DNA from: Curtobacterium sp. MR_MD2014
GTDB taxonomy: Bacteria > Actinomycetota > Actinomycetes > Actinomycetales > Microbacteriaceae
Length of the DNA stretch: 64,000 nt
Reading direction: 5' to 3'
NCBI RefSeq assembly: GCF_000772085.1
Contig: NZ_CP009755.1
Coordinates: 1,612,001 to 1,676,000 of the forward strand
Shown: piece after piece, positions 8,313 to 12,000 of the stretch
Layout: the number at the start of each line of letters is the position of its first letter
Numbering within the stretch: position 1 is the stretch's first letter
Notes under the pieces: model-generated
Told to the model about the DNA's origin: nothing
Databases searched by the model: none
The model's input: the letters and a program-made list of their open reading frames with translations, nothing else
Program-made: the position numbers and the translations under genes

Positions 8313-8323
8313 TCCCGCAGGCG

Positions 8324-9376
8324 CTAGCGGGTCCCGGCGCCGGGCGTGTCCCAGTACGACGGCTGTTCGTACTGCTCCGACCACCCGCGACGCATCCGCG
8401 TCGCCGCACGGTCGAACGCGTCGACGAGGTCCGTGTCCGTGGTGAGCAGCGCCTGCAGGCGGAGCCCGTCGTACAGCGCCAGCAACTGCTGCGCGCCCCG
8501 GACCGGGTCCATGGTCGCCGGCTCCCGTCCGTCGCGGACGTCCGCTGCGAGTCCGTCACGGATCGACTGCCGGAACCGCCGGTAGGTGGATCGGTGGTAG
8601 TCGGCACCCTCCACCGTCGGGTCAGCGGCGGACGCGAGACTCGCCGCGAGGAGTTCCATCAGTGCCGGCTGCTCCGCATGTGCAGCGAGCAGGGCGTGCA
8701 GGAACGGGACGGTGCCCTTCTCCGCCATCAACGGCACGAGCGGCGCCGCGATCGTCTGCGTCCACCGTTCGACGGTCGCGGCCAGCAGCGCCCGCTCCGT
8801 CGGGAACGCCGCACGGACCTCGTCGGCGTCCATCCCCGCACGCTCGGCGACGACGTCGAGGGTGAACCGGGAGATGCCGCCGTCGTGGAGCGCGGCGATC
8901 GCCCCGCCGATCGCGCGTGTGCGTGGTACTTCGTCCGCTTCGGCCGTCCGGCTCGTCAACGGTGCCAGCGGGTGCTTCCGGAACCACTCCAACAGCCCTC
9001 GCGCCCGGGTCAGGCCGAACATGGGGTCTGCTGGCTGGCTGGGGCCGAACAGGTCACTGAAGCCCGGGACCTCCTGCATCAGCGGATCGAGCGGCTGGAA
9101 CGCCATCGACCAGTCCGGGAACGACCGCTGGGCGACGGGCTCGTCCGCCAGGACCCGCACGTTCGTGTGCCGAGGGTCACGGCGGACCTGTTCGAAGCGG
9201 ACAGCAACGCTCTCGTCGTCGCCCTCGATGATCCCGAGGCAGTTGTCACCCTTGTGCGCCAGGATGCCCGTCACCCCGAGGGCCGTGTTCTTCTCCCGCC
9301 CGACCGCGAGGATCTGCGCGAGCTCGGTGTCCGTGATCGGACGGGTCTGTGTGCTGGTGTACACGATCGAACGCAT
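8324..9376 (-). CDS. BLUF-domain/TetR-type fusion transcription regulator
   Basis: 350 residues. Residues 1-95 form a BLUF flavin photoreceptor fold: the conserved Tyr (Tyr6 in IVYTS), Asn (Asn30 in KNTALGVTG), the DPRHTNVRVL strand and Trp89/Met91 in FPDWSM are all present. The Gln that drives BLUF photochemistry (before xxEG) is replaced by Gly48 in NCLGIIEG. Residues 100-145 resemble BLUF cap helices. About residues 150-350 are a TetR-type regulator: the HTH is around ISRFTLDVVAERAGMDADEV and an all-helical C domain follows. The start is the ATG at 9376 with ggagacc upstream. It lies alone on the minus strand. The family is that of a light- or redox-sensing regulator; the missing Gln makes light sensing doubtful. 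Confidence 0.85.
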   Translation of the reverse strand: MRSIVYTSTQTRPITDTELAQILAVGREKNTALGVTGILAHKGDNCLGIIEGDDESVAVRFEQVRRDPRHTNVRVLADEPVAQRSFPDWSMAFQPLDPLMQEVPGFSDLFGPSQPADPMFGLTRARGLLEWFRKHPLAPLTSRTAEADEVPRTRAIGGAIAALHDGGISRFTLDVVAERAGMDADEVRAAFPTERALLAATVERWTQTIAAPLVPLMAEKGTVPFLHALLAAHAEQPALMELLAASLASAADPTVEGADYHRSTYRRFRQSIRDGLAADVRDGREPATMDPVRGAQQLLALYDGLRLQALLTTDTDLVDAFDRAATRMRRGWSEQYEQPSYWDTPGAGTR

Positions 9377-9712
9377 CAGTGCTGGTCTCCCTGCCGTAGT
9401 GGAACACGGTGCGCTCTCGAGTGAACTGCTCTGTCTACTGCTCCGCAACCCCCCGACCGGCCGCGGACAGTGCTCATCCCGTGGAACCCCCGTGCAGGAG
9501 TCGCGGACCGGCCGGAGACGGGCGGGACACGGGAAGTGGTGCCTGGCTGCAACCCGAATGCAGCCAGACACGACACCGTCCGGATCACGAGTCCGGTACG
9601 GGGATCATCGAACCAGGCCGTGAGCAGGCTCTCGAGACCCACAACGCGGGGAGAACGACCGTCCCCGGAGCGCATCCCTCGTCGACCGATCGCCTCGCAG
9701 GTGCTCCGGCGT
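9377..9712. other. Intergenic gap of 336 bp
   Basis: Upstream region of the BLUF-TetR gene and downstream of the minus-strand MerR gene. It holds the BLUF-TetR ribosome binding site (9382-9388) and a short direct repeat (accgatcgc twice near 9685-9725). I see no convincing gene, RNA or recognisable promoter. Confidence 0.6.
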
Positions 9713-10102
9713 TCACCGATCGCGGAGGATCCCGAGGAACTCGTCGGCCATGCCGAGGTGCTGTTCGAGCTTCGCGCGCCGCTGCTCGGTGTCGCGGATG
9801 TACTCGTCGAGCTGCCCACGGAGACGCGCCTGCCCGGGTCCGTCACCGGCGACCTCGAGGGCGTCGACGACGGCGAGCAGTTCGGCCATCTGTTCGAGGG
9901 AGAAGCCGAGGGGCTTCATGCGGCGGATGATGAGCAGCCGGGCGAGGTCGGTGTCGGTGTAGAGCCGGAAGCCGCCCTCGGTCCGGCCGGACGGGTGCAG
10001 GAGACCGACCTCGTCGTAGTGGCGGATCGTCCGGTTCGACAGGCCCGTGCGGTCGGCGAGCTCGCCGATGTGCATCGTCGTCGGTGCGGCTCGCTCCGTC
10101 AT
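9713..10102 (-). CDS. MerR-family regulator (sister copy 1)
   Basis: 129 residues. An N-terminal winged HTH (MHIGELADRTGLSNRTIRHYDE, with GRTEGGFRLYTDTDLARLL) is followed by a dimerisation coiled coil ending in ADEFLGILRDR. The start is the ATG at 10102 behind an AAGGAGAA site. No metal-binding Cys cluster is present, so this is not a classical metal sensor. It is divergent from an MFS transporter gene and a 23-bp palindrome lies between them. It is closely similar to the MerR at 11591-11977, sharing MKPLGFSL and GFRLY. Probable role: inducible control of the neighbouring transporter and of itself. Confidence 0.88.
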   Translation of the reverse strand: MTERAAPTTMHIGELADRTGLSNRTIRHYDEVGLLHPSGRTEGGFRLYTDTDLARLLIIRRMKPLGFSLEQMAELLAVVDALEVAGDGPGQARLRGQLDEYIRDTEQRRAKLEQHLGMADEFLGILRDR

Positions 10103-10181
10103 CGGCTTCTCCTTCGTGGTCCTGCTGGGCTCTGGCGAGCGTAGCGCCGTCGTGTCCCCGGCTCCTGTACCAGGTATCGAC

Positions 10182-10204
10182 AACCCTTCCGTGGCGGTAG
10201 GGTT
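10182..10204. promoter_or_regulatory. MerR-type palindromic operator, MFS/merR copy 1
   Basis: AACCCT-t-CCG-tgg-CGG-t-AGGGTT is a 23-bp palindrome between the divergent merR and MFS genes. Its left half, aacccttccg, recurs at 12002 next to the second merR gene. MerR proteins bind such sites within over-long promoter spacers. Confidence 0.75.
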
Positions 10205-11590: not shown

Positions 11591-11977
11591 TCAGTGCGCG
11601 CGGAGTTCGTCGAGGAACTCGTCGACCATGTGCAGCTGCTCCTGGAGGCGCCCTCGTCGTGTCTCAGCGTCCCGGATGAACGCAGCGACCCGCGAACGGA
11701 CCGCGGTCAGGTCCACGTCGGGCTGCGCTTCGTCGAGCATCTTCACCGCGTCCACCAGGATCCCGGCCTCCCCGAGGGAGAACCCGAGCGGTTTCATCCG
11801 CCGCACCATCAGGAGTCGGGCGACGTCGTCCTCGGAGTACAGGCGGAACCCGCCTCCGGTGCGGCCGGACGGGTGCAGCACCTCGGCGGCGTCGTAGTCG
11901 CGGATCGTCTTCACACTCAACCCGGTGCGCTCGGCGACCTCGCCGATGTGCATCAGGTACTCGTTCGACATCGTCAC
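11591..11977 (-). CDS. MerR-family regulator (sister copy 2)
   Basis: 128 residues from a GTG at 11977, chosen because GGAGGG lies seven bases upstream; ATG 11971 and GTG 11992 are alternatives. The winged HTH (MHIGEVAERTGLSVKTIRDYD, GRTGGGFRLYSEDDVARLL) and the coiled-coil end (MVDEFLDELRAH) match the MerR at 9713-10102 along the whole length. Divergent from the SulP transporter gene with operator-like inverted repeats between them. The two regulators and their two transporters look like a duplicated regulatory module placed in front of different transporters. Confidence 0.88.
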   Translation of the reverse strand: MTMSNEYLMHIGEVAERTGLSVKTIRDYDAAEVLHPSGRTGGGFRLYSEDDVARLLMVRRMKPLGFSLGEAGILVDAVKMLDEAQPDVDLTAVRSRVAAFIRDAETRRGRLQEQLHMVDEFLDELRAH

Positions 11978-12000
11978 GTCGTCACCCTCCACTTGCGCAA

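Follow-up and report, generated by a model that had tools for sequence, protein, structure and literature searches.

What does a BLUF photoreceptor domain do once the glutamine of its light switch has been replaced? The question is raised by a gene in the 64,000-nucleotide stretch of Curtobacterium sp. MR_MD2014 analysed here (the window; NZ_CP009755.1, positions 1,612,001 to 1,676,000), which fuses a BLUF domain to a TetR-type part and carries glycine (Gly48) at the position of the photocycle Gln. The gene occupies positions 8324..9376 as a single open frame of 350 codons (350 amino acids). It lies on the minus strand, which the preliminary description of this locus had left unnamed, and its ATG start is preceded by AGGGAG. 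Tentatively, and as a possibility rather than a probability, we favour a reading in which the light switch was lost and the pocket kept, such that the protein may act within a stress module as a sensor of the flavin/thiol type. Loss of the canonical light switch as such we regard as nearly certain.

Replacement of the photocycle glutamine

Residues 2–92 (9101..9373, minus strand, as are all features of the gene given below) match the BLUF family PF04940 with 89.1 bits against a cut-off of 25, and a PF04940 match is present in all 34 members of set A1. No LOV/PAS family was among the Pfam matches to the fusion protein at E ≤1, and no LOV entry was among the 50 structure matches listed for its model; in this predicted structure, a single AlphaFold2 (AF2) model, both a BLUF fold and a TetR fold were recognized. 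The column that holds Gln in solved BLUF proteins is occupied by Gly48 (codon at 9233..9235) with the other pocket residues kept, as had been read from the sequence, and the residue numbers given at that time for Tyr6, Asn30, Gly48, Trp89 and Met91 proved exact.

A search for BLUF plus TetR architectures with inspection of the Gln column, the check proposed in the preliminary description, identified Gly48 as a trait of the family. It is present in all 63 distinct fusion proteins from all loci fetched (L numbers), nearly all of them from Curtobacterium and one (L231) with an internal stop; row L208, consisting of two adjoining genes separated by a stop, was left out of the set. A sequencing slip as the source of Gly48 is thus ruled out. 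Among 77 distinct non-fusion BLUF sequences 76 carry Gln, the sole Gly belonging to a fusion that is cut off past residue 235 (L118/L150). A quick BLUF tree of 52 chosen rows places the fusions in a single group (Shimodaira–Hasegawa-like approximate likelihood ratio test, SH-aLRT, 95) with a Gln-bearing short Curtobacterium BLUF protein (L134) as its neighbour (support 91), and the Gln column needs one change, located on the fusion branch. Alignment and tree together show that the canonical Gln switch disappeared when the family arose. That a Gln elsewhere might take over the role, a possibility with which the preliminary description had reckoned, was ruled out for the family: no other Gln is conserved through all 53 Tyr6-bearing fusions, of which 46 carry Gln10 and Gln63 and the remaining seven Met10 and Gly63.

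The fusion, with at least 330 aligned residues, occurs in 44 of 66 Curtobacterium genomes, one of which (G034) has an internal stop in it. When 394 genomes of the class were searched, only the own genome passed E 1e-45, and among the matches listed for 398 Microbacteriaceae genomes none outside Curtobacterium spanned both parts. Confinement to Curtobacterium is ruled out by a full copy of 64% identity on a Frigoribacterium plasmid. Full-length fusions on plasmids were seen in six C. flaccumfaciens records, in Curtobacterium sp. MCJR17_020 and in Frigoribacterium sp. NBH87 (one each; locus L250).

Conservation of the flavin pocket and Cys46

Invariant in all 42 distinct proteins of the main clade are Tyr6 (9359..9361), the electron/proton donor of BLUF domains, as well as Asn30, Cys46, Gly48, Gln63, Asp67, Arg69, His70, Trp89 and Met91. 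Selection was gauged by the ratio of non-synonymous to synonymous substitution rates (dN/dS), calculated as Nei-Gojobori pairwise means without tree correction, with paralogues included and pairs filtered by dS. In the 42 main-clade proteins it amounts to 0.200 for the BLUF domain and 0.196 for the C-terminal domain; the corresponding values are 0.141 and 0.115 in the 11 closest sequences, and 0.164 and 0.181 in the 26 most distant ones of the main clade. A Gln-BLUF comparison set gave 0.289, a value that is inflated because the set mixes two paralogues (22 sequences of one and seven of the other, assigned by locus). Neutral decay of the BLUF part is ruled out for the Tyr6 clades by these ratios. 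Because the switch residue stayed replaced while the domain remained under strong selection, the fusion probably senses something via a route so far undescribed, and it is rather likely that flavin is still bound.

A candidate for such a route is Cys46 (9239..9241), which was absent from the preliminary description's account of the BLUF site. It lies two residues ahead of Gly48, and since strand β3 of the model comprises residues 45–52, residues 46 and 48 are expected on one side of the strand. At position 46 the 77 other BLUF sequences carry Phe (67), Ile (9) or, in the truncated fusion, Cys. The 63 fusions, by contrast, combine Tyr6 with Cys46 (53 proteins), Phe6 with Val46 (7) or Phe6 with Ala46 (3); Cys46 is therefore found in 53 of 53 Tyr6 fusions and in none of ten Phe6 fusions. 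In 30 of the 42 main-clade proteins it is the sole cysteine. Several Phe6 proteins are also devoid of other pocket residues, some having lost Arg69, His70 or Met91, which suggests that the pocket decays after loss of Tyr and Cys.

In E. coli the BLUF protein BluF (YcgF) is linked to a transcription regulator, the MerR-type BluR. That system differs from the fusion in that its components are separate proteins, the regulator is of the MerR instead of the TetR type, and Gln is retained. The fusion is distinguished from BlrB, PixD/Slr1694, OaPAC and AppA by Gly at the photocycle Gln position, by Cys in place of Phe two residues earlier and by a TetR-type output. The standard BLUF switch is described as one in which Gln bridges the flavin and Tyr (PMC5899715; PMC9486806). 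The preliminary description had held that in AppA changing this Gln abolishes the photoreaction, a statement in need of nuance: the Q50A variant of Slr1694 and the Q63E variant of AppA are reported to be locked in a pseudo-lit state (PMC6695109), and loss of Gln thus need not silence the domain. LOV receptors without their active-site Gln (PMC9098866) are natural flavin sensors that, like the fusion, are missing a conserved Gln, and in LOV domains a Cys takes part in the chemistry; they appear to differ in fold, and for Cys46 of the fusion we only infer such a role. Among the titles listed in searches of open-access text, none dealt with a BLUF-TetR fusion or with a BLUF domain lacking the Gln, and nothing was found on degenerate BLUF domains or on a BLUF cysteine adduct.

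Several uses of a BLUF domain with Gly48 have to be weighed. That the protein is a blue-light repressor of the usual one-component kind, with an unaltered BLUF photocycle, is very improbable: the general fold and most pocket residues would allow it, but the switch Gln is Gly in every fusion and has no substitute running through the Tyr6 fusions. The domain might have lost flavin binding and be kept for structural dimerization or protein contact. This is what the Phe6 lineages may illustrate, as the fusion persists in them without an intact pocket, and it would agree with the insolubility of the Q51A and Y7A variants of BlsA, which the authors tie to flavin binding (PMC6695109). The invariant pocket of the Tyr6 lineages and a constraint on the BLUF domain equal to that on the C-terminal domain nevertheless render this explanation rather unlikely. 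Slightly less credit is due to a light sensor working by another route, be it flavin photoreduction by Tyr6 and Trp89 or photochemistry of Cys46. Retention of Tyr6 and Trp89 together with the newly acquired Cys46 is compatible with it, LOV receptors are able to signal without their Gln (PMC9098866), and the photoinactive BLUF mutant OaPAC Y6F still photoreduces to FADH− (PMC9486806); yet five Gln-bearing BLUF genes are already present in the own genome.

The pseudo-lit variants mentioned above leave room for a locked state, in which Gly48, and later Phe6, would fix a lit-like conformation and turn the protein into a constitutive regulator of which the level alone counts. PixD Y8F is likewise locked in a light-signalling conformation (PMC5899715), and both the Gln and the Tyr position are replaced within the fusion family. 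Since a locked state leaves the invariance of Tyr6, Trp89, Met91 and Cys46 unexplained, we consider it unlikely, and more so than a light sensor of another kind. With these alternatives in mind, a response to redox conditions or oxidative stress based on Cys and Tyr appears as the likeliest use of the domain; a flavin/thiol sensor is suggested by the lost switch, the retained pocket residues and the Cys on the same strand.

The TetR-type part

By its domain content the fusion is a TetR-type dimerizing/regulatory domain joined to a BLUF-derived sensor. The linker (residues 96–147; 8936..9091) bears an LLEWFRKHP motif that is similar to the C-termini of short BLUF proteins from Curtobacterium. 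It is followed by a helix-turn-helix (HTH) region (residues 148–205; 8762..8935) and by a TetR C-terminal domain (residues 225–315; 8432..8704; TetR_C_6, 33 bits versus a cut-off of 27). The N-terminal TetR family TetR_N (PF00440) matches residues 158–200 with 12.4 bits and does not reach its cut-off of 24. Unlike TetR regulators with a BetI-type C-terminal domain, the fusion thus combines a TetR_N match below cut-off with a non-canonical, variable recognition helix.

The stretch at the position of that helix, residues 180–191 (8804..8839), is the fastest-evolving part of the fusion, with one of 12 sites invariant. In the 42 main-clade proteins its dN/dS is 0.575, compared with 0.352 for the HTH region; the respective values are 0.438 and 0.227 in the closest sequences and 0.563 and 0.364 in the most distant ones. 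The reverse holds for a canonical TetR protein of the own genome that served as control (C1 2696584–2697234; 58 of the 66 genomes have it at E 1e-60): over 29 orthologues the recognition helix is the most constrained part (0.164), below the HTH (0.313) and the whole protein (0.268). The preliminary description had proposed one-component light control of transcription; the BLUF-TetR architecture behind this proposal stands, while light control as formulated is not supported, given the sub-threshold TetR_N match and a recognition helix that is the least constrained part.

It is quite possible, though somewhat short of an even chance, that the TetR half has no specific operator and that the fusion acts through protein contact, for instance with a neighbouring SpoIIE phosphatase or another TetR protein. 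Besides the weak TetR_N match and the high dN/dS of the helix, the net charge of a 25-residue stretch around the helix, −1.3 in the fusion versus +2.2 in the control, points in this direction. Three observations speak against a simple loss of DNA binding: TetR_N is matched by part of the members (19 of 34 in set A1 at E ≤1, the best at 3.4e-8), dN/dS of the whole HTH is similar in fusion and control, and odd helices are also present in the nearest unfused TetR relatives. On balance, the chance that the fusion binds DNA by its TetR part appears to be about even. No dyad that might represent an operator is shared across all fusion upstream regions. A second TetR-like gene, 34–35% identical to the TetR part, lies directly downstream of the fusion in L117, L152 and L153 of the Phe6/Ala46 clade.

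BLUF and TetR also occur as one unit in an unfused Curtobacterium cluster, in which a canonical TetR gene is flanked by one or two BLUF genes (own genome C1 2696123–2697730, L005; L200–L229). Among the 30 unfused TetR loci fetched, two BLUF genes are present at 21, a single one at eight and none at L227. In contrast to the fusion, the cluster consists of separate genes, its TetR matches TetR_N with 50.4 bits, and Gln is retained in all 50 BLUF rows. BLUF and TetR are thus connected in two ways in Curtobacterium, of which one, the unfused form, could be photoactive.

SpoIIE phosphatases and a possible stress module

No neighbour gene offers itself as a fixed target across loci, the largest cluster being found at eight of 46 loci when the gene itself and overlapping frames are set aside. 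In the window the fusion adjoins flgE, which is conserved as a neighbour in the nearest relative only. Outside this relative, nucleotide similarity to the window ends near 9392–9481 and 8322–8348, that is, the gene and about 95 bp ahead of it move as a unit. Two MerR-like genes at 9713–10183 and 11591–11992 of the window, about 54% identical, flank a transporter-like gene.

The own genome encodes four SpoIIE-family PP2C phosphatases above cut-off (PF07228), and a SpoIIE gene lies within 800 bp of the fusion in seven of 48 placements with enough flank. Four arrangements occur: same strand and just upstream in the Phe6 clade (L072, L073, L151), divergent at 372 bp (L065, L251), same strand and upstream (L047), and a position 786 bp downstream (L043). 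By a rough binomial estimate under a rough uniform model, the probability of four independent cases by chance is about 8e-5, with 0.22 expected. Within the clade showing the divergent arrangement, L146 and L147 have no SpoIIE gene within 3 kb. On plasmid P20 (L251 3099–4629) a gene of the sigma-70 family and one for a SpoIIE phosphatase lie next to the fusion.

A second connection is the promoter-like motif GGGTTG-N20-TTSACTCG at 9418..9451, 41 bp ahead of the start codon. With at most one mismatch it has two matches in the own genome, both perfect, ahead of the fusion gene and of a SpoIIE gene (control, 0); with two mismatches allowed there are 18 matches versus nine for the control, and in 66 genomes 92 versus 26 with one mismatch. 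In nine genomes examined (L156, L161, L268–L274) the motif stands ahead of the SpoIIE orthologue, and in others ahead of osmC genes; 11 motif regions fetched for checking comprised seven SpoIIE genes, three osmC genes and one that is neither. Among 62 fusion upstream regions 21 contain it with at most one mismatch and 31 with at most three, compared with one for the reversed pattern. The motif looks more like a promoter than an operator because in SpoIIE genes a GTG start follows some 5 bp after it. It is common to window positions 9418–9451, L156 1501–1534 and L188 5090–5123, and at osmC it overlaps a GAACG-N2-CGTTC palindrome. A fusion subgroup (L050, L054, L058, L059, L060) has GGTTACGGTGACC-type and GTCGATTCGGGTTCGAC dyads in place of the motif.

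Taken together, these data show that an ancestor of the family dropped the hydrogen-bond light switch formed by Gln. Strong purifying selection has since held the pocket (Tyr, Asn, Trp, Met), and a Cys is placed two residues away on the strand of the missing Gln. We propose that flavin would have been retained, the domain working as a sensor of redox or oxidative stress instead of a standard blue-light switch. Its state would be relayed via the linker to the TetR dimer, and the fusion may serve a stress-response module with DNA binding or protein contact as output. The stress-module part derives from the SpoIIE-type phosphatases, which are linked to the fusion by neighbourhood and, in the own genome, by the shared motif.

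A number of observations weigh against this proposal. No SpoIIE gene is near 41 of 48 fusion placements, that of the window included, and 31 of 62 fusion upstream regions are without the motif (more than three mismatches). Where a lineage has a SpoIIE gene next to the fusion, the motif is usually missing, and the two SpoIIE links are thus seen for the most part in separate lineages. In a tree built from 61 fusions the association of Tyr6 with Cys46 reduces to two changes each and hence to two events, an orientation of Cys46 toward the flavin is predicted from strand alternation, and the Frigoribacterium plasmid copy has His for Asp67 and Ser for Arg69.

More speculative, and in our view improbable, is the idea that the BLUF fold exchanged its Gln switch for cysteine–flavin chemistry, in the form of thiol redox reactions or a LOV-like Cys46 photoadduct with Tyr6 as partner. 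Flavin switches would then comprise a third type, coupled here to a TetR-type dimer as part of a stress module with a SpoIIE phosphatase.

Since this Gln is regarded as central to BLUF photochemistry, the family represents a ready-made test of flavin signalling without it, of the kind made earlier with LOV receptors lacking their Gln (PMC9098866). For Curtobacterium, which is associated with plants and soil and has many BLUF genes, the fusion may be a pointer to a stress module that includes a SpoIIE phosphatase and an OsmC-type gene.
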